Below are positions 8,839 through 17,910 of a stretch of 64,000 nt of DNA, piece by piece. The position numbers and the translations under genes are program-made. Position 1 is the stretch's first letter, and each line of letters starts with the position of its first letter. Source of the stretch: Sulfuriroseicoccus oceanibius (lineage in GTDB: Bacteria; Verrucomicrobiota; Verrucomicrobiia; Verrucomicrobiales; SLCJ01); assembly GCF_010681825.2 (NCBI RefSeq), contig NZ_CP066776.1, positions 3,038,001 through 3,102,000 on the forward strand, read 5' to 3'. A model generated the notes under the pieces. It was not told where the DNA came from and did not search any database. It saw only the letters and a program-made list of their open reading frames with translations.

Positions 8839-9591
8839 TCACCGCTGACGGCGGCGCATGATCCACGTAAACCCACCCAGTGCGAGCAATGCCTGCAACC
8901 CAGGCTCGGGAACTTGAGTCGCGGAGCCCGCGGCATTCAAACTCAAGAACGCCATCTGATCGGCGCTCAAAACCTCATCGAAAATCGCCACATCGTCGAT
9001 GTCCGCAGTGATCGCCCGCACGCCATCGCCCCAACGTGATCCGAGCTGGAACGATGTCATCGTCCCAGTCGAAAAGTTGTTAGTAGAACCCACGAACGCG
9101 CCATTCACATAGTAACTCAGCGTCGCACCATCGCCCACCACTCCCAGATGATGCCATCCGCTGCTCACATCTGTGGGCGACTGTACATTCACTCCGTCCG
9201 CTCCACCCACTCCCCACAACGCCGTGGTATTGCCTCCTGTATGCTCCAGAAATGCGATCCCATCGGCATTTCCAAACGAGAGATAATCGCGCCATGCGTC
9301 CGCATCCCCCTGCACATGCATGGAGATCGTGAAACTCGTCATCGTCACTCCCAACACATCGAAATCCGCATCCCAGAATTGAGATGCCCCTGCAAAAAAG
9401 CCTCCCCCACCGCCAAACCGCCCCGGCACTGCGGCCACGTCGGACGACTGATTCCAATCCATCACACCGGTTCCGGTGTTCTCGCCCATATCAAGTTCGT
9501 TATCGAATGTGAAGTAGGCCACCATCGCGGCGGACGCATGACTCATGGCAAACATAGCCACTACACTGGAGCTGAGAAGGATTCGCATCAT
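8839..9591 (-). CDS. LamG-domain protein with PEP-CTERM sorting signal (1)
   Basis: 250 residues from ATG 9591 (MMRILLSSS). Signal peptide to about residue 22 (SHASA/AMVAYFTFD), then one LamG/concanavalin-like lectin-glucanase domain recognisable from DGVNVQSP...GWHHLGVVGDGATLSYYVNG and ITADIDDVAIFDEVLSADQM. The C-terminus is a PEP-CTERM tail: VPEPGLQALLAL, a hydrophobic stretch and RRRQR. Such tails are sorted by exosortase/EpsH, which is not encoded in this window. It is a tandem paralogue of the next gene. Its upstream region has no clear copy of the TGTTAACG motif found before its neighbours; CCGGAACC-N14-AAGATA at 9628-9655 is a weak equivalent. Confidence 0.87.
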   Translation of the reverse strand: MMRILLSSSVVAMFAMSHASAAMVAYFTFDNELDMGENTGTGVMDWNQSSDVAAVPGRFGGGGGFFAGASQFWDADFDVLGVTMTSFTISMHVQGDADAWRDYLSFGNADGIAFLEHTGGNTTALWGVGGADGVNVQSPTDVSSGWHHLGVVGDGATLSYYVNGAFVGSTNNFSTGTMTSFQLGSRWGDGVRAITADIDDVAIFDEVLSADQMAFLSLNAAGSATQVPEPGLQALLALGGFTWIMRRRQR

Positions 9592-9627
9592 CACTGTGTC
9601 GTTGGGTTGTTTTGTGAAACGCACTCC

Positions 9628-9655
9628 TATCTTTTCGCGTCACCTCAGGTTCCGG
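9628..9655 (-). promoter_or_regulatory. Weak promoter candidate for LamG/PEP-CTERM gene 1
   Basis: CCGGAACC, 14 bases, AAGATA. It keeps the AAC core and the 14-base spacing of the four TGTTAACG promoters nearby but little else. It lies between the preceding terminator and the gene. It may be a diverged site, a site for another sigma factor, or chance. Confidence 0.25.
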
Positions 9656-9679
9656 ATGCAACAATCCCAATCAACAAAC

Positions 9680-9727
9680 AAAAAAAGGCCGCCGGAGAAC
9701 GGGTGATTCCACCCATCTCCGACGACC
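9680..9727 (-). terminator. Intrinsic terminator between the two LamG PEP-CTERM genes
   Basis: On the minus strand an imperfect hairpin of about 18 bp (GGTCGTCGGAGATGGGTG against CACCCGTTCTCCGGCGGCC, with G-U pairs and a bulge) is followed by seven T. It ends the transcript of the 9767-10558 gene, so the 8839-9591 gene needs its own promoter. Confidence 0.85.
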
Positions 9728-9766
9728 TCAACCAAACGGTCTTTACAATTTCAGAGTCGCTGAAGA

Positions 9767-10558
9767 CTACTTGCGGCGACGCAAAATCAGCGCCAATCCA
9801 CCAAGCCCCAGCAACGCGGCCGAACTAGGTTCAGGCACAGCAACAGCGGAGGCCGCTGCGTTTGTGCTCAAGAACAGCATTTCGCCATCCGTTAGTGTGT
9901 TATCGAAGATCGCGACATCATCGATCTCGGTCGTGATCGCTCTATCGCCATCACCAAAGCGTGACGCCAGCTGGAAAGCACTCATGGCACCCGTTCCCGA
10001 GTACGCAGCGCTCCCTCGATTCTGACCATCGATGTACAAGGTCAAGGTTCCACCACCAACGGTCAGGCCAAGATGGTGCCACGCTCCATCATCCACATCA
10101 AACGTACCAGCACCGGGAGAATAAGCGACCTGCCCTTCATTCACCCCACCAACGCTGCCAATGTTGTAGTTAGCAACCCCCTCTGCTCCGGTGCGTTCCA
10201 GAACAAACACAACGTTGTTGCCGGTCCCAATCGATACAAAGTCCTTCCAGGAATTCGCCTGACTCGACTTCACATGCATAGAGAGAGAGAAGCTCTCCAT
10301 ATTGGCTACCGAGAAGTCGCCATCCCAGGCACTTGAGCTCCCCGCGACAAAACTACCCGCGCCGGCTCCGAAGCGGCCCGCCGTTTGAGTAACTTCGCTA
10401 AAGTTGTTCCAAGCTGTCGCCACGGTGCCCGTATTGGCACCGAGATCTCCAGCGTCGTCGAACGTGAAGTTCGCGACCATCGCCGCCGAAGCCGACGACA
10501 CCGACAAGGCAAGAGCAGCAAACGCTCCTGCAGTTGTGCACAATTTGCGTGTAATCAT
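9767..10558 (-). CDS. LamG-domain protein with PEP-CTERM sorting signal (2)
   Basis: 263 residues from ATG 10558 (MITRKLCTTAG), chosen because a signal peptide follows at once (ALALSVSSASA/AMVANFTFDD). One LamG domain (DDGAWHHLGLTVGGGTLTLYIDG; ITTEIDDVAIFDNTLTDGEM) closely parallels the neighbouring gene over its whole length, showing tandem duplication. It ends with VPEPSSAALLGLGGLALILRRRK, a typical PEP-CTERM anchor (motif, helix, basic end). Probably cell-surface or exopolysaccharide associated; the ligand is unknown. It has its own TGTTAACG-N14-GAAATA promoter at 10621-10648, placed directly against the terminator of the preceding gene. Confidence 0.88.
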   Translation of the reverse strand: MITRKLCTTAGAFAALALSVSSASAAMVANFTFDDAGDLGANTGTVATAWNNFSEVTQTAGRFGAGAGSFVAGSSSAWDGDFSVANMESFSLSMHVKSSQANSWKDFVSIGTGNNVVFVLERTGAEGVANYNIGSVGGVNEGQVAYSPGAGTFDVDDGAWHHLGLTVGGGTLTLYIDGQNRGSAAYSGTGAMSAFQLASRFGDGDRAITTEIDDVAIFDNTLTDGEMLFLSTNAAASAVAVPEPSSAALLGLGGLALILRRRK

Positions 10559-10620
10559 TTTTTGTTTTCTTGTTAGTTTGCACGGAGACAACAGCTGGCG
10601 CCATCGACCCGCGCCCCCTC

Positions 10621-10648
10621 TATTTCGGCATCCCGTTCAGCGTTAACA
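10621..10648 (-). promoter_or_regulatory. ECF-type promoter motif, copy A (LamG/PEP-CTERM gene 2)
   Basis: On the minus strand TGTTAACG at 10648-10641, 14 bases, then GAAATA at 10626-10621. The start codon is 62 bases further on. The same two blocks at the same spacing occur before three other genes of this island. Confidence 0.75.
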
Positions 10649-10656
10649 GATTTCGC

Positions 10657-10696
10657 AAAAAAAGCCGCGTATCGGCATTCTCTCCCGATACGCGGC
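10657..10696 (-). terminator. Intrinsic terminator after the 10719-11321 gene
   Basis: A perfect 12-bp stem, GCCGCGTATCGG with CCGATACGCGGC, 9-base loop, followed by seven T on the minus strand. Only eight bases separate the T-run from the TGTTAACG box of the next gene. Confidence 0.95.
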
Positions 10697-10718
10697 ATTA
10701 GAATTAAGCTTCAGCCCG

Positions 10719-11321
10719 TCATTTCTTGCGGCGCATCACGAGCGCAGCGCCACCAAGAGCAAGCAATGCCGCCGCTCCTGGCTCAGGCACGGGATTAACC
10801 TGGAAACTGACACTATCCGTCTCCCCCCAGCCCCCGCCAACCGATCCAGGAAGCGACTGATCCTCGTGCTCGTAACGGAAAACCACAAACTTCCCGACAT
10901 CCGCCGCCGTCGCGGTGTACGCGGTCTGAACCAAATCAGCAGCAGTTGCAATCTGCGCGTCTCCTGCCACCCAAGTGCGGGTGCCCGCATCCGCACCATC
11001 CCACAAAATCACCTGCAACGAATAGGCGTAGGTATTGCCTGCGACTCCTGGTGCCCCGGCATACTTGATCACCGCAGCATCCATCAAAATCTCATCGCCC
11101 TCTGCCAGCGCCACTCCGTGGTGGTACTCCGCCGATCCCGTCTGCGCCCAGACTAGACTGCCGCCTCCGTTCAAGTTCAGACCATTGTTCACCGTCCAGC
11201 CCCCATCCGAGACCAGATCACCGCCGTAGTCAAAGTCATCACTGAACACAACCGCGGCATCAACGTTGCATGCAGCCGCGATCGAAAAAGCGGTCAAGAT
11301 AAGAGGAGTTCGAAGCTTCAT
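10719..11321 (-). CDS. PEP-CTERM secreted protein of unknown function
   Basis: 200 residues with an N-terminal signal peptide (to about NVDA/AVVFSDDFDY) and a C-terminal PEP-CTERM tail (VNPVPEPGAAALLAL, helix, MRRKK). The middle is a beta-rich region with DDFDYGGDLVSDGGW near the start, of the kind seen in jelly-roll domains, but I do not recognise a named family. It is transcribed alone: its own promoter motif lies at 11399-11427 and a perfect terminator at 10657-10696. It is exported and presumably sorted by exosortase like its neighbours. Confidence 0.85.
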   Translation of the reverse strand: MKLRTPLILTAFSIAAACNVDAAVVFSDDFDYGGDLVSDGGWTVNNGLNLNGGGSLVWAQTGSAEYHHGVALAEGDEILMDAAVIKYAGAPGVAGNTYAYSLQVILWDGADAGTRTWVAGDAQIATAADLVQTAYTATAADVGKFVVFRYEHEDQSLPGSVGGGWGETDSVSFQVNPVPEPGAAALLALGGAALVMRRKK

Positions 11322-11398
11322 AGAGGTTTGTATTTTGTTGGATCAAATGGCGAACTTCGCTTCAAACACGCGTTCGAAAAACGACCTCACCGCCCGCT

Positions 11399-11427
11399 TA
11401 TGTCCGCACCTCGGTTGAGCGTTAACA
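11399..11427 (-). promoter_or_regulatory. ECF-type promoter motif, copy B (PEP-CTERM gene)
   Basis: TGTTAACG at 11427-11420, 15 bases, GACATA at 11404-11399. Start codon 77 bases downstream. It has one extra spacer base and an A-to-C change relative to the other three copies. Confidence 0.65.
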
Positions 11428-11435
11428 ACAAATAC

Positions 11436-13010
11436 TCACTCAGTCTGCATTCGCGGGTCATTCTTCTCCATCAGCACACGAATCCCTTCCTCATCTAGAG
11501 CTCCATAGAAAAGGTAGACCTCGTCAATATCCCCGCGAAATACGATCGGCGGAGTGCCCGGCTGGTGAATACTCGATCCGATCGTCACAGGGGTAGAGTC
11601 AACGTCATGCGTTACGGTGTAGGTGTGCATCACCGACCCCTTCTTCTCTGCAGGAATGAACTCGCCCTGCTTTTCCCCATCGATATAAACGGTCACCAAC
11701 ATGCCTCCGGGGAAGTCCTGATTATCGATCGGCCGCGCCACACAGGCCACATGGTGCCACTCACCATCCGCCAAGTTCCTCCTGACAGGATAATACGATC
11801 CTCCACTGGTTACCAAATTGCCACCGTGTCCCATCGTCATTACCCACAATGAGTTCGAGCTGGAGGGGTCACCATCGTTCTGACACAAGCCCCAGCCAAT
11901 CAAACCACCAATATCCTTCCCGGTAGGCGTAGACGGTGCGATATCCGTACGAATCCAGCACGCCGTGGTGCGCGCCCGAGCCCCCTCAATACCGTTCAAC
12001 CGGGTTCGCAACTGCTGTCCCTTGGTGCCATCGAAGCGCACCGCATTGCCAAAACGTCCATCGACCAACTGCAGGCCTGTTCCCAGCCTCTCGGATCGCG
12101 CGTGAGCAAAATCCCCCCCCATGTGTACCCCTTCCGCGAGAAAACGCCCGTCCTCCACGCGATCAAAGCTCCAATGCACATACGGCAATGTATCCGGCAG
12201 CAGGCTCATGAATTGCCCCTCTTCGAACTCCGTAAGCACCCAGCCATCATCCCCTGAAACCACTGCCGCCTGCCCTTCCTCAAGCAAAACCTCGGAACTA
12301 CCCAAACTATCAGTCTCGCCCCGCACCACTCCATCCATCACGTGAATCTCAGTCGGCCTCCCGGGCACAACCGCCACGCCAAAGGTAGTTCCCAAATCGA
12401 CCGCACGGCAATCCGGAGCCTCAACCGAAAAACCTTCCGCCCCAACCGGCACATCGAACCACCCCAGCCCCTCCTGCAAGCGCACCTCACTCTCGGACAC
12501 AGCCTCAACCACCGCAGGACCTACCACCACGGAACGAACGCCACTAGGGAAGCTCAATTCCACCACCCCTTGATCCACTACCAGACTGGATCCGACTGTC
12601 AGCATTGGCCCCTCTCCAACATGCCCTGCTCCACCACTGTGCTCGAGATGGAAAACGGTCGAAGGAGCCACCTCCAGACCAATCGCCAACTGACGGCTCC
12701 GCTCACTTCGCATCATGTGAAGCGCCACTCCTCCCAACAACAGCACCACTGCAGCAGCCACAGCAGAAATCTTCAACGCACGCGCATGCTGATGGCGTAG
12801 CACCTCTTTCATCGAGACCACGCCCCCTCCCTGCCCCGCACCTGGTGCCGCATTCAATCCAATCAAACTATGGACATCGATGAAGTCGAGATAGGCCTCA
12901 CGCCACTCCGTCGACTCCCTCAACTTGTCCTCCAATTGAGCAAACTCCTCAGGCGACAACTCCCCTTCCACCATGCGGGAAAACCATTCATCGCGTTCCA
13001 TATCCATCAT
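11436..13010 (-). CDS. FecR-like anti-sigma/sigma-regulator protein with LamG domain
   Basis: 524 residues. The start is ATG 13010, whose ATGA overlaps the TGA stop of the sigma gene, indicating translational coupling. Residues 1-50 are an acidic helical region (DEWFSRMVEGELSPEEFAQL), as expected for sigma binding in the cytoplasm. One membrane helix lies near residues 80-100 (AVAAAVVLLLGGVALHMM). A FecR-like domain follows (VELSFPSGVRSVVVGPA, AVDLGTTFGVAVVPG, GWFDVPVGAEGFSVEAPD), then from about residue 285 a LamG domain (YVHWSFDRVEDGRF, GEWHHVACVARP, VFRGDIDEVYLFYGAL). Topology should be N-in, LamG-out. By analogy with FecI/FecR it controls the adjacent ECF factor; the signal is unknown. 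Confidence 0.85.
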   Translation of the reverse strand: MMDMERDEWFSRMVEGELSPEEFAQLEDKLRESTEWREAYLDFIDVHSLIGLNAAPGAGQGGGVVSMKEVLRHQHARALKISAVAAAVVLLLGGVALHMMRSERSRQLAIGLEVAPSTVFHLEHSGGAGHVGEGPMLTVGSSLVVDQGVVELSFPSGVRSVVVGPAVVEAVSESEVRLQEGLGWFDVPVGAEGFSVEAPDCRAVDLGTTFGVAVVPGRPTEIHVMDGVVRGETDSLGSSEVLLEEGQAAVVSGDDGWVLTEFEEGQFMSLLPDTLPYVHWSFDRVEDGRFLAEGVHMGGDFAHARSERLGTGLQLVDGRFGNAVRFDGTKGQQLRTRLNGIEGARARTTACWIRTDIAPSTPTGKDIGGLIGWGLCQNDGDPSSSNSLWVMTMGHGGNLVTSGGSYYPVRRNLADGEWHHVACVARPIDNQDFPGGMLVTVYIDGEKQGEFIPAEKKGSVMHTYTVTHDVDSTPVTIGSSIHQPGTPPIVFRGDIDEVYLFYGALDEEGIRVLMEKNDPRMQTE

Positions 13011-13546
13011 CCTGCTTGCCCCTCCATTTGTAACCTGTCTGACACACACTTGCGCAACATGGCACGCACCCGGTGCAGGGTCACGCGCAATACAGGCGCC
13101 GAACGCCCCGTCTCCGCCGCCAGCGACTCGATCGATTGAGCGCCACCATACCGGGTCATCAACAAATCACGGTTCCCAGGACTGACCTTCTCCAGGCATT
13201 GCGCCAACGCACCGCGCTTCGCCTCAAAGAGCGCAGACTGCCTTTCACCTGATCCATCCGCCAGCAACTCCACCACATCATCGCTGAAAACCAACCACCC
13301 CTCGCGCTTCATCCGCTTGCGATAATTCATCACCTTGTAGCGGGCGACCGTCGCCGCCCACGCTCCGAAGTTACTCCCGATTTCAAAGCTCTCCCGCTTC
13401 TCCCAAAGCACCACATTCACCTCCTGCAGCACATCGCGGACATCGGACACATTCGGCACCAACGCCAGAATCAACGAACGCAAAGCCTCCTGATGCCCCG
13501 TCAACAAGCGGACAAATTCCCTAGAGTGTTCAGTCGATGATTCCAT
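13007..13546 (-). CDS. ECF RNA polymerase sigma factor, Rhodopirellula/Verrucomicrobium family
   Basis: 179 residues. Region 2 is seen in RDVLQEVNVVLWEKRESFEIGSNFGAWAATVARYKVMNYRK (residues about 37-77), and region 4 in LLMTRYGGAQSIESLAAETGRSAPVLRVTLHRVRAML. The FxxWAxxIAR-like FGAWAATVARYKV and short linker fit the family named for Rhodopirellula/Verrucomicrobium. There is only one reasonable ATG, at 13546, and a promoter motif matching the neighbouring genes ends just 13 bases upstream, suggesting autoregulation and a very short leader. It overlaps the FecR-like gene by four bases. Confidence 0.92.
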   Translation of the reverse strand: MESSTEHSREFVRLLTGHQEALRSLILALVPNVSDVRDVLQEVNVVLWEKRESFEIGSNFGAWAATVARYKVMNYRKRMKREGWLVFSDDVVELLADGSGERQSALFEAKRGALAQCLEKVSPGNRDLLMTRYGGAQSIESLAAETGRSAPVLRVTLHRVRAMLRKCVSDRLQMEGQAG

Positions 13547-13559
13547 GTGTTGCCGCCCC

Positions 13560-13587
13560 TATTTCGACGCCTCTCAAACCGTTAACA
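13560..13587 (-). promoter_or_regulatory. ECF-type promoter motif, copy C (sigma factor gene)
   Basis: TGTTAACG at 13587-13580, 14 bases, GAAATA at 13565-13560. The ATG of the sigma gene lies 13 bases downstream, so a start site 6-7 bases after the -10 element would leave an almost leaderless mRNA. Confidence 0.75.
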
Positions 13588-13595
13588 AGAAAAAC

Positions 13596-13634
13596 AAAAA
13601 AAACATCCCGCCACCGGATCATACCGATGACGGG
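13596..13634 (-). terminator. Intrinsic terminator after the metalloprotease gene
   Basis: CCCGTCATCGG pairs with CCGGTGGCGGG (two G-U pairs) around a six-base loop, followed on the minus strand by an A and eight T. It lies immediately upstream of the sigma-gene promoter. Confidence 0.88.
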
Positions 13635-13658
13635 ACAACCTTCGACATAGGCTGAAGG

Positions 13659-16600
13659 TTACTCAAACACCAGGTATCCGATCTGCTCCGCACCATGACG
13701 ACGCTCACCATCACGGATCTGATCCTCATCCACCGCCATGGTAAGCGTAGACGAATTGATCGCACCGGCACCATAAAGCACCGCCCAGCCTCCATTATTA
13801 CCATCCATACCCGCCACACTCACGGCAGCTGCACTCGCGCTGGCCAATCCACTCAGGTTGTAGCTGTATCCTGGAGAGTCCCCAACCCCTTTGACGGAGT
13901 CAGCCCCCACCCCAGCCACCAGAGCCACGCCATCCAGGGAGCCGCTCCCACTCTCAACCACAATATAGCCAAGCACCTCATCAGCACGACCTGTGTTCAC
14001 ATCGTCTTCAGCTATCTGCTTACCTACATTCAGCACAGTGGCTGACGGATGACTCAAACGATCGCCCCCCATACAGAAGAATGTGGAGAAGTTTGAATCG
14101 TTCGCACTCATCACCTGCCCGACCACGACAGGCGAACTATAGCTATTGAGATAGGACCGCGACTCAGCAATCCAGCCAGGAGTGCGCCCTGCAGTAACCG
14201 TAGAGGTGAACTTGACCGCCTCCATGGTCACGCCATCGGAGGCCTGCGTATAGACCCCTTCCTCAACCGCGATCACCGACACGTCGACAGTCACTTCCCC
14301 AATCAGGCCATCGGCGCGGTCGATCTTCAGATCGAAGGTGCTACCACTGACATTCTGGATGCGGGTGACCACTGGTGGAGTCGCGGTGTCCGGATAAATC
14401 GGAGTCGCCACAATCACCGCCGAGTTATAGTTCTGGCCGAGGTCGACAGTCGTCCAACTCGTGCTACTGACCGCACTGACAGTGGTACGCACCAACTTCG
14501 GCGAGTTGCTCGCTTCGGTGGTGAACGATCCACTGCTGCCCCACACCGTACCCGCACTATTGCTGGCCTGCACGGTGAAGTAGTAGGTGGTGCCCGCGGT
14601 CAGACCACTAAGCGATGCGGTGTAGCCACCGGTCGCCTGGTTACCGTGGGCGGCACTGTTGGCCCAGTTACCAGCCACTTGGCCGCCATCGGTCTCACCG
14701 TAGTAAACCGTCACTGCCGGAGCGTCGCCACCGTCATCAGTGACGGAGTAAGCCACGTCCGCTGAGGTCTGGGTGATCGAACTGGCACTGCCGGTGGCAA
14801 TCACAGGCGCGGTCACTTCCACCACATCGGTCACATTCACCGTAACCGCCGCGGCATCGCTGAGCGATGGGGTTCCGTCATCGGTCACCGTCACAGTGAG
14901 CGCATAACTCGTGGTGGTTTCATAATCCAGGGGCGCAGCCGTGGTGATCTCACCAGTGCTGCTGTTGATGGCAAACTCACCACCGGCGTTGCCTGCGGTA
15001 ATGGCATAGCTCAAGGTATCACCAGCATCCGGATCGGAAGCCGAGACCGTTCCTACCGTGCTACCAATCACCACATCTTCAGCCACTGCGAAGGTCGCAT
15101 CGGAAGCAACTGGCACCTGGTTCACAGGGCCAGCTGGACGAACGGTTACCAACTTGAAGTTATCGAACTCGTTCCAGTTTCCACTGTTCACACGGAGTGC
15201 CAGCTCTTGACCAGCGTACTGTGACGCCACCGTATAGTCCAAGCGGATCGTGCCCCAGCTGCTCCAGCCGATTGGCTCCGTGGTTTCAGCCATCAGCTGA
15301 TAACTTCCACCGCTCTTTGCGAGCAACTGCACACTGCGCACATAGCTTCGTGAGCTGTCGTAAGTCAGAGTCAAAGCCTCCCCAGCGGTCAAGGTATATC
15401 CAAGATCCTGAGTCAGTTCAGAGCCCGTCCCCATATAAACAAACTGGGAACCATGGGAACCTCCTGCACCAACACCCAAACCGGCACCGGCAGCAGTAAG
15501 TGTCCAGCCCGTCGGCGCACCCGAAGTTGCCGGCCCATCTTCAAAGCTCCGGTTCGCGATAGGAACCAGCGCTTGCTCATTAGTCGTGAACTCCCAAACG
15601 TCGCCGGCAAGCGTCCCCGAAGAGGTCACCGAATCCACACGCCAGAAGTAGGTCGTGTTCGGATTGAGAATAGGGTCCGCGAGTGACGCGCTGGTCACCT
15701 GCCCCTGATACTCTGGCGAAGCCGTCGTCGCATTCTGCACCGCAACTTCATTGGTTCCGACATACACATCATAACCGGTGGCTGCCGCGTACGCATTCCA
15801 AGTCAAGTCCTGCGGAGACGTTCCATCGGCCGTATCAAATGGGCTCGGACGCGACGCCCCCTTGATCGACGTGATCTGGAAGTTATCGAACTGGTTCCAG
15901 TTGGCACTGATCATCCGCACGACCAATTCCTGTCCGGCGTACTGCGACTCAACAGCGTACTGCAACGTAATTCCGGTTGCCCATCCACCCCAGCCTGTCG
16001 CCTCGGTGGATTCCGCCATCAGCGTATAGCTCCCACCACTTTTGGCGAGCAGCTGAATGTTACGATCGTAGTTCCGATCACTATCATAGGTCAGGGTCAA
16101 CAACTCACCCTCGGTGAGAGTGTATCCCAAGTCCTGGGTCAATTCCGCCCCCGGGCCCATATACAAGAAATAGGAGCCATCCGAGCCACCTGCCCCAACA
16201 CCAATTCCCGACCCCGCAACCGTGTGTGACCACCCATTCGGCACTCCACCAGTTGTACCATCCTCGAAGCTGTGGTTCGCGATCACCACCTGAGGATCGC
16301 TATACTGAATCGTTACATCGATCACGACCACGCCGGTTGCTGTGTTACCAGCCGAGTCGGTGATCGTGTACTTGAAGTAGTCCGCGCCGAGATAAGCGCC
16401 TTGGGCGGTGTAAACGAGATCGTCTCCCTGGCGAGTTACCGTACCGCCTCTTGCCGACACACTGTCGAAGCTCGAAAGCACCAGAGACTGACCGTTGGCG
16501 TCGTGGTCATTATTAAGCACACTGACGCTGACCGAAGAGTCGACCCGCTGGACAAACGTCCCCACATCCAAGCTCGCGTACGGCGGCAATTCCACAGAAG

Positions 16601-17618
16601 AATACGTCCCCTCTGCATCCAGGATTCCCCCGGCCGAAATCTTACTGTTACGGTGATTGAGAATTCGGTAAACCTCGGGTCCGCTCATGCGACCGGTACC
16701 ATTGCCCCCCATGAAGCCAGTCCCCTCAGGAGAACCTCCAACATAGTGGCCGCAGTTCCAGTTGTGCCCCATCTCATGACGGAACACCACGTCAAACAAT
16801 CCAGAACTACCACTATCGTTTACCGAATAGCCGCTGGAGGTTCCTACCACCCCGACCCAAGCCAAGCCCCCTCCGACCTTACCCGGAGTCACGCCAGCCA
16901 CCAAGTCACTGTTCGAATCAGCATGATTGGCATTCCAATGAGTTCGCAGCGCACTGAGATAATCGCCTGCCCCAAAAGCTGTGTATGGATCCTGAGTCTG
17001 ATCGGTTCGAACAATCACGCGCCCGAGATACGGACGAAGCAATGCGTCGCGCATATACTGGGCACGAGTAACGCAGATATTATACTCGATTAGCTCAAAT
17101 GCCTTCGCCACGGAACTCCCTCCGGGACCGCTGTAGTAACCGTACTCAGCATCAATCCCCAAATCGAAACCGTAGGTAATCACCCCCGCCTGTCCCGCGC
17201 TCACACTAGGTGCCGACGGCACACTATAGGATGTAAAAGACTCCGGAGCATAACTTTCCGCTTGTGTTCCTACAACGGAACTCCCAAGCGTTCGCCAAGT
17301 CACCCCGCGATCGAAGAATACCGCTCCACGAAAGGTACCGTCGTCTTGCAGAACTCCACACGAAACCGCATCAGGATACTCGTCGACTGTCCCAAGGTAC
17401 GACCGCTCCGCCACGGGCGTGATCACATCGTATCCTCCTGAGGCATTCTGAGCCAGCAGCTCAAAGTTGGAACCTCGAAGATCCTCTCTCGTCAATCGAA
17501 GGGTGATCGTTTCGTCGTTCCGTGTCACCGATTGCACCATGCTCTCAGGAGCACCTGTCACCACATTTGCCATCGCAGCAAATGCCGCAACAGCCAACGT
17601 CATTATAGCTCTAATCAT
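13659..17618 (-). CDS. Secreted reprolysin-like zinc metalloprotease with Fn3, cadherin and repeat domains
   Basis: 1,319 residues, signal peptide to about residue 22. The catalytic zinc site is FRHEMGHNWNCGHYVGG (HExxHxxxxxH, His at about residue 281), a metzincin signature, with a candidate Met-turn region in GFMGGNGTGRMSG. Residues about 350-440 form a cadherin-like/Big domain (ARGGTVTRQGDDLVYTA). Then come two copies of a 150-residue module, each beginning NHSFEDG or NRSFEDG and ending WNQFDNF or WNEFDNF, separated by an Fn3-like domain. A cadherin repeat (EDVVIGSTVGTVSASDPDAG), an Fn3 domain and a 230-residue C-terminal domain follow. No PEP-CTERM tail is present, so it is probably released or held by another route. 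It carries an island-type promoter motif 172 bases upstream. Confidence 0.88.
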   Translation of the reverse strand: MIRAIMTLAVAAFAAMANVVTGAPESMVQSVTRNDETITLRLTREDLRGSNFELLAQNASGGYDVITPVAERSYLGTVDEYPDAVSCGVLQDDGTFRGAVFFDRGVTWRTLGSSVVGTQAESYAPESFTSYSVPSAPSVSAGQAGVITYGFDLGIDAEYGYYSGPGGSSVAKAFELIEYNICVTRAQYMRDALLRPYLGRVIVRTDQTQDPYTAFGAGDYLSALRTHWNANHADSNSDLVAGVTPGKVGGGLAWVGVVGTSSGYSVNDSGSSGLFDVVFRHEMGHNWNCGHYVGGSPEGTGFMGGNGTGRMSGPEVYRILNHRNSKISAGGILDAEGTYSSVELPPYASLDVGTFVQRVDSSVSVSVLNNDHDANGQSLVLSSFDSVSARGGTVTRQGDDLVYTAQGAYLGADYFKYTITDSAGNTATGVVVIDVTIQYSDPQVVIANHSFEDGTTGGVPNGWSHTVAGSGIGVGAGGSDGSYFLYMGPGAELTQDLGYTLTEGELLTLTYDSDRNYDRNIQLLAKSGGSYTLMAESTEATGWGGWATGITLQYAVESQYAGQELVVRMISANWNQFDNFQITSIKGASRPSPFDTADGTSPQDLTWNAYAAATGYDVYVGTNEVAVQNATTASPEYQGQVTSASLADPILNPNTTYFWRVDSVTSSGTLAGDVWEFTTNEQALVPIANRSFEDGPATSGAPTGWTLTAAGAGLGVGAGGSHGSQFVYMGTGSELTQDLGYTLTAGEALTLTYDSSRSYVRSVQLLAKSGGSYQLMAETTEPIGWSSWGTIRLDYTVASQYAGQELALRVNSGNWNEFDNFKLVTVRPAGPVNQVPVASDATFAVAEDVVIGSTVGTVSASDPDAGDTLSYAITAGNAGGEFAINSSTGEITTAAPLDYETTTSYALTVTVTDDGTPSLSDAAAVTVNVTDVVEVTAPVIATGSASSITQTSADVAYSVTDDGGDAPAVTVYYGETDGGQVAGNWANSAAHGNQATGGYTASLSGLTAGTTYYFTVQASNSAGTVWGSSGSFTTEASNSPKLVRTTVSAVSSTSWTTVDLGQNYNSAVIVATPIYPDTATPPVVTRIQNVSGSTFDLKIDRADGLIGEVTVDVSVIAVEEGVYTQASDGVTMEAVKFTSTVTAGRTPGWIAESRSYLNSYSSPVVVGQVMSANDSNFSTFFCMGGDRLSHPSATVLNVGKQIAEDDVNTGRADEVLGYIVVESGSGSLDGVALVAGVGADSVKGVGDSPGYSYNLSGLASASAAAVSVAGMDGNNGGWAVLYGAGAINSSTLTMAVDEDQIRDGERRHGAEQIGYLVFE

Positions 17619-17789
17619 TGTTATTCAGGGGTTGTTGTCCTGCCTTGGCAGCAATTGCCACCAAAGCCCCCCTCGACAAACGCGACTCAGCAGAAGCTCC
17701 ATCAACAGCGAGGGGGTGAGGCTTAGGAATGACCTCCGAACCGTCCACCCGCTGTTTAAGCAGAAGAAAGTAGAGCGGCTCTAAAGCAA

Positions 17790-17817
17790 TATTTCAAAAC
17801 CCCGTAATCCGTTAACA
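17790..17817 (-). promoter_or_regulatory. ECF-type promoter motif, copy D (metalloprotease gene)
   Basis: TGTTAACG at 17817-17810, 14 bases, GAAATA at 17795-17790. The start codon is 171 bases downstream, a long leader that contains no other obvious gene. Confidence 0.7.
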
Positions 17818-17854: not shown

Positions 17855-17892
17855 ACAAAAAAGCCCGTCTCCGCTAACTCGCAGAGACGGGC
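17855..17892 (-). terminator. Intrinsic terminator after folE2
   Basis: GCCCGTCTC pairs with GAGACGGGC around a 12-base loop; six T follow on the minus strand. Confidence 0.9.
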
Positions 17893-17910
17893 TCAAGATC
17901 AAATAACAAC

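Follow-up and report, generated by a model that had tools for sequence, protein, structure and literature searches.

A predicted ECF sigma factor regulon in Sulfuriroseicoccus oceanibius with a local dialect of a family-wide promoter

Promoter predictions for ECF sigma factors, made group by group, have reportedly been published by Casas-Pastor (in 2021) and by Todor (in 2020). The -35 element of ECF promoters is usually of the AAC type and most ECF operons are autoregulated; the classical FecI systems are cited as not following this rule (PMC8103513). For autoregulated ECF sigma factors, a residue-to-base code is already in print, as far as can be judged from the summary of Todor et al. (2020) in PMC8103513. 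The PEP-CTERM genes of floc-forming bacteria depend on RpoN, or sigma-54 (PMC9850573). The sigma factors of the family TIGR02989 (Sig-70_gvs1; the Rhodopirellula/Verrucomicrobium family) are numerous in Planctomycetota and Verrucomicrobiota. This family is little studied, and we found no paper on the targets or mode of action of its members from these two phyla in the literature searched.

Here, we analyzed a window of 64,000 nucleotides from Sulfuriroseicoccus oceanibius in which a TIGR02989 sigma gene lies among four copies of a bipartite, promoter-like element. This sigma factor resembles its TIGR02989 relatives in profile membership and in the place and form of its self-promoter. It differs from them by a -10 of GAMATA rather than GRCATTT, by Arg rather than Lys in the recognition helix, and by at least three further local target promoters. 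With FecI/FecR-type systems it shares an ECF sigma gene that is directly followed by the gene of a membrane FecR-like regulator. Here, however, the regulator ends in LamG, the sigma gene appears to be autoregulated and no TonB receptor could be recognised in the island (none of the genes profiled at 8839-17618 encodes a TonB-dependent receptor). The AAC core, a sigma-specific -10 and a base preference that tracks region 4.2 residues are also traits of the autoregulated ECF sigma factors of Todor et al. (2020), to the extent that these are summarised in PMC8103513, whereas the code described below was derived for a branch of PVC bacteria. Finally, PEP-CTERM proteins are under an alternative sigma factor in the RpoN case too (PMC9850573), but sigma-54 and another promoter type operate there, whereas here the ECF sigma factor is encoded beside its candidate targets.

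The four sites and the genes that they precede

The original prediction described four minus-strand copies of TGTTAACG-N14/15-GAMATA, each preceded by a pyrimidine. Coordinates, strand, spacers (14, 15, 14 and 14 nt) and -10 sequences (GAAATA, GACATA, GAAATA and GAAATA) were all exact, and C or T was found before TGTTAACG at all four copies. The spacers are unrelated, as had been noted, except for a vague CTSAAC start common to two of them, and the flanks are unrelated as well. Dinucleotide-preserving shuffles gave an expectation of 0 copies against the 4 in the window.

The genome consists of a single contig of 3,496,488 bp. A search of it with the pattern TGTTAACN{14,17}GAMATA returned exactly four matches, the window sites, and the backwards control returned none. 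When 384 genomes were drawn from the class, 7 matches turned up in the 383 genomes other than that of S. oceanibius, fewer than for the backwards control (11); this puts the background at ≈ 0.02-0.03 per genome. Given so low a background in the class, and with no copy elsewhere in the genome, four copies within 7.2 kb are far beyond chance. A genome scan had been named beforehand as a possible refutation of the prediction. Its outcome spoke in favor: the four matches are all intergenic, on the same strand as the next gene and 41-199 nt upstream of its start codon.

Profile searches and coordinates confirmed the four downstream genes that had been named, namely an ECF sigma gene, a metalloprotease gene, a LamG/PEP-CTERM gene and a second PEP-CTERM gene. 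The promoter of the sigma/anti-sigma operon (TGTTAACG-N14-GAAATA; 13560-13587, minus strand) has the same position as in relatives. It ends 13 nt upstream of the sigma ATG (13546), and a very short leader is thus predicted for the sigma mRNA. The copy at 17790-17817 (minus strand; TGTTAACG-N14-GAAATA) lies 199 nt before the start codon of a gene (13659-17618, minus strand) for a secreted reprolysin-like metalloprotease of 1319 aa with Big_9, cadherin and fn3 domains (Reprolysin_5 E 9.5e-8; Cadherin E 5.6e-22). The copy with the longer spacer (TGTTAACG-N15-GACATA; 11399-11427, minus strand) stands 106 nt before the start codon of a gene for a PEP-CTERM surface protein of 200 aa (10719-11321, minus strand; TIGR02595 24.2 bits, PF07589 22.9 bits). 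The fourth (TGTTAACG-N14-GAAATA; 10621-10648, minus strand) lies ≈ 90 nt upstream of the probable ATG, at about 10558, of a gene for a LamG-domain PEP-CTERM surface protein (9767-10591, minus strand; TIGR02595 27.2 bits, Laminin_G_3 E 2.4e-15). Both proteins pass the TIGR02595 and PF07589 cut-offs; their signal peptides were judged by eye. Terminator-like hairpins on the minus strand lie just upstream of the sigma promoter (13604-13637, assigned to the metalloprotease gene) and upstream of the metalloprotease promoter (17861-17894, assigned to the preceding gene).

The sigma factor (13007-13546, minus strand; 179 aa) has the recognition helix L-R154-V-T-L and is a full member of TIGR02989 (158.9 bits; curated cut-off 124.55). 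It also scored 66.3 bits with the sigma70-ECF profile TIGR02937 (cut-off 42.9) and 42.1 bits with Sigma70_r2 of Pfam (cut-off 24), and its score with Sigma70_r4_2, 20.3 bits, is just under the cut-off of 25.7. As in ECF (group IV) sigma factors, sigma2 and sigma4 domains only are present, joined by a short linker. We found no relative of this protein in the viral collection searched and no close ortholog in a same-genus genome, where the best identity was 37-43%.

The next gene (11436-13049, minus strand; LamG_3 E 3.5e-8) has a probable start at 13010 that overlaps the sigma stop codon (ATGA), and the two genes form one operon. Its product comprises a short N-terminal helical part, one membrane segment, a FecR-like part and a C-terminal LamG domain. 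We call it FecR-like only, since its FecR score of 20.2 bits is under the Pfam cut-off of 24. In two sister islands, the paralogs encoded at this position exceed the cut-off (32.0 and 26.9 bits), and others come close; 3 of 4 such proteins also match LamG. The protein is likely to be the anti-sigma factor of the adjacent sigma factor.

The self-promoter of related sigma genes

To compare the element with relatives, we assembled 79 related sigma loci from other genomes together with paralogs from the S. oceanibius genome and its family, which left 87 non-redundant genes. A de novo search for a two-block motif in the 110 nt upstream of each yielded (T)GTTAACCTT-N12-GACATTT, that is, GTTAACC(TT)-N12-GACATTT, which, by the fitted model, is carried by 79% of the 87 upstream regions. 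Its log-likelihood was 359, compared with 85-98 for three Markov-shuffled sets. The -35 starts mostly 34-50 nt upstream of the ATG, and the set spans other genera as well as Planctomycetota. When the sigma promoter of the window was aligned with the family motif, the -35 core and the spacing were the same and the -10 (GAAATA) differed.

A held-out set of 75 further non-redundant sigma genes was divided by recognition helix. Of the 33 with a K/R-[VATIMNS] helix, 12 reached a score of at least 6, as against none of 33 reverse complements; among the 42 TIGR02989-like sigma genes with another helix, none did so (control, 1 of 42). This difference (12/33 versus 0/42) indicates that the promoter belongs to one branch of the TIGR02989 family. 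Throughout the K/R-V-x branch, the -35 has this GTTAAC core and the spacing is the same; what sets the sigma factor of the window apart is only its -10, GAMATA in place of GRCATTT. Hence, the proposal of an 'unreported promoter class' is not supported as worded: core and spacing are family-wide, and an AAC -35 is a general rule for ECF sigma factors (PMC8103513). What is established is that an ordinary ECF promoter of the 'AAC' kind is shared across the family and that the window has a local dialect of it. Since the AAC -35, autoregulation and a residue-to-base code have been published, the last as summarised in PMC8103513, the idea and the mechanism are already known. In the literature searched, which did not include the key ECF classification papers, we found no description of the promoter of the window or of ECF-controlled PEP-CTERM islands in these phyla.

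The comparison with relatives, which had been suggested as a check, lends strong support to the regulon reading, and the self-promoter recurs. Extra copies within ≈ 8 kb of the relatives' sigma genes are not enriched (14, against 17 in the control), and the local multi-gene island is thus not a family-wide rule. In most relatives the predicted -10 ends ≈ 7-19 nt upstream of the sigma ATG (median 17), and a Shine-Dalgarno-like stretch was seen in only 7 of 59 sigma genes. With so short a gap and so few Shine-Dalgarno sequences, many such sigma mRNAs are expected to have no leader or almost none. Two of the loci, L085 and L087 (Akkermansiaceae MAG), are near-identical and carry records labelled with different phyla; that of L085, filed as Deltaproteobacteria, is probably mislabelled. 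A divergent gene pair there (sigma and, in L087, a PEP-CTERM gene) carries the promoters CACGTAT and CGCGTCTAT, which are related.

The recognition helix of region 4.2 has the form L-[K/R]-X1-X2-L, and its residues covary with the promoter: at position 7 of the -35 element (-35:7), C accompanies Lys and G accompanies Arg, and a Val at X1 pairs with GTTAAC and an Ala with NTAAAC. Promoter sites were read with the tested columns blanked. In counts that are inflated by kinship of the sequences, Lys occurred with C in 42 of 45 cases of the first set and Arg with G in 10 of 14 and with C in 0 of 14 (p = 5e-11); the held-out set gave 9 of 9 and 3 of 3 for the two favored pairs. Val went with TA (31/31 in the first set, 7/7 held out) and Ala with AA (20/20 and 4/4). 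An unbiased scan of 28 promoter positions against 179 sigma positions, about 5,000 pairs, placed -35:7 with R154 at the top (10.6 sd), then -35:3 with V155 (6.9 sd) and with R159, and T156 was close behind. The best partner of -10:3 was K71 (4.5 sd), which lies in the region 2.3-2.4 stretch.

On a tree from which the helix triplet had been left out, K/R changes four times, twice on well-supported branches, mostly in concordance with the base, and V/A changes once, on one well-supported branch. With so few switches, a test by independent pairs does not reach significance for the covariation. A clean case of convergence is L129 (Planctomycetota), in which an Arg sigma factor within a Lys clade has G at -35:7 and keeps the -10 of that clade, GGCATTT.

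Sister islands in the same genome

A paralogous sigma factor at C1:799816, 51% identical to that of the window, has its own promoter, GGTTAACG-N14-TCCATTG. Searching the genome with GTTAACGN{14,15}TCCATK gave five matches, all at C1:799745-804955 (5.2 kb; L147:9745-14955), and one control match. These promoters (GTTAACG-N14-TCCATK) precede the paralogous sigma gene, three PEP-CTERM genes and a gene for a GH29 fucosidase that is secreted and carries F5/8 type C domains. The -35 is thus the same in both islands and the -10 of the second, TCCATK, is private. A sixth related site, GTTAACG-N14-TCCATA, lies beyond the fucosidase gene (L147:18208, plus strand; C1:808208), ≈ 315 nt upstream of a membrane protein gene that resembles a phosphatase-type regulator; it may be a chance occurrence or a further target.

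Three more sigma and FecR/LamG pairs occur within ≈ 18 kb at C1:1155862-1174700 (L144, L145), interleaved with PEP-CTERM genes, two sulfatase genes and a gene for a raffinose-synthase-like protein. Their self-promoters are TGTTCACG, TGATAACG and TGATCACG. Paralogous sigma genes are placed at C1:1155909, C1:1164773 and C1:1171899. The form GWTMACGTTT-N11-13-GACGTS had three matches in the genome and none in the control; two lie upstream of further sigma paralogs and one upstream of a PEP-CTERM gene. Sulfatases are encoded in this region as well.

The sister islands replicate the design seen in the window, which argues for sigma-specific -10 dialects. Across five sigma factors of this genome, the X1-X2 residues of the helix go with the promoter sequence as follows: VT with (T/G)GTTAACG, VA with TGATAACG, TT with TGTTCACG and TA with TGATCACG. 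Because each combination occurs once or twice, we offer a two-residue helix code as a hypothesis. We give even chances to the wider proposal that the genome holds parallel, insulated modules of ECF sigma factor, FecR/LamG protein and promoter, each with a private dialect that can be predicted from two or three helix residues (the LR-X1-X2-L code) and each with its own island of PEP-CTERM and secreted-hydrolase genes (metalloprotease, fucosidase or sulfatases). Parallel modules within a single genome also offer a natural setting in which to test what keeps sigma paralogs from crosstalk.

Proposed working and alternatives

The original prediction held that the sigma factor controls its own gene and a small local set of surface-protein genes. 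The genome scan, the family self-promoter, the covariation and the second island all support this. Very probably, the ECF sigma factor 13007-13546 recognises the four sites as -35/-10 promoters, and these drive its own operon, the metalloprotease gene and at least two PEP-CTERM genes. That the system is real, and that it was read largely correctly in functional terms, is well supported.

Since TGTTAACG includes the perfect palindrome GTTAAC and all sites lie upstream of genes, the core could be taken for an operator to which a transcription factor binds as a dimer, and the -10-like part for a piece of housekeeping-type promoters. This is highly improbable: relatives keep position and spacing while the palindrome is broken in step with the sigma helix (NTAAACC, GTTAACC, GATCACG), the second half of the element is fixed at 14-15 nt and is itself conserved, a sigma-70 scan gives no housekeeping promoter at the sites, and -35:7 covaries with a sigma residue. 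The last point bears equally on the possibility that the sites serve another sigma factor and lie near 13007-13546 incidentally. Several close TIGR02989 paralogs are encoded in the genome, some with a similar -35, and crosstalk among them is plausible. However, the exact GAMATA form is confined to the surroundings of this sigma gene, the C1:799816 paralog (51%) and a third pair are flanked by their own TCCATK and GACGTS forms, respectively, and the self-promoter covaries with the sigma helix; we consider service to another sigma factor highly improbable, too.

It is scarcely credible that the copies arose as a side effect of recent duplication, or of some repeat or terminator element, and do not form a selected promoter set. 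Terminator-like hairpins with T-runs do lie just upstream of at least two copies, and the two LamG genes are paralogs. Both boxes and their spacing are nevertheless kept while spacers and flanks differ, with no alignable flanks seen; the four downstream genes come from different families; and the element occupies the same place upstream of sigma genes in other genera and in Planctomycetota.

In the preferred reading, recognition of the four sites by the adjacent sigma factor, we infer that the sigma factor binds, in which sense regulation runs, that the FecR/LamG protein acts as anti-sigma factor, and any signal. The FecR/LamG protein, translated from the sigma operon, would hold the sigma factor at the membrane and release it when the outer LamG part meets a ligand or partner. 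R154, V155 and T156 of the region 4.2 helix would then contact TGTTAACG, and region 2 the GAMATA -10. The sigma factor would transcribe its own operon, in positive feedback, together with the gene for the secreted metalloprotease and two or more genes for PEP-CTERM surface proteins; every unit has a promoter to itself. Sequence and position of the promoter fit an autoregulated ECF system of the AAC type, in which autoregulation itself is a prediction. The shared promoter and helix code should allow TIGR02989 regulons to be predicted from sequence. Judging by the islands, these sigma factors may take part in the control of surface and polymer-degrading proteins.

A paralog of the LamG gene (8839-9624, minus strand; Laminin_G_3 E 5e-15) has a PEP-CTERM-like end that does not reach the PEP-CTERM cut-off, and no site with fewer than 5 mismatches lies upstream of it. 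It may be silent, read through or otherwise controlled, and its membership of the regulon is uncertain. The gene lies in the same gene row and is preceded by a terminator-like hairpin. Allowing two mismatches, a scan of the whole genome gave 26 matches against 31 in the backwards control; with no excess, distant members of the regulon cannot be claimed. One-mismatch copies occur at C1:680880 (L005; -10 GCAATA) and C1:3192577 (L006; -10 GGAATA); they may or may not belong to the regulon. The former lies 99 nt upstream of a gene whose product has a membrane segment at its N-terminus.
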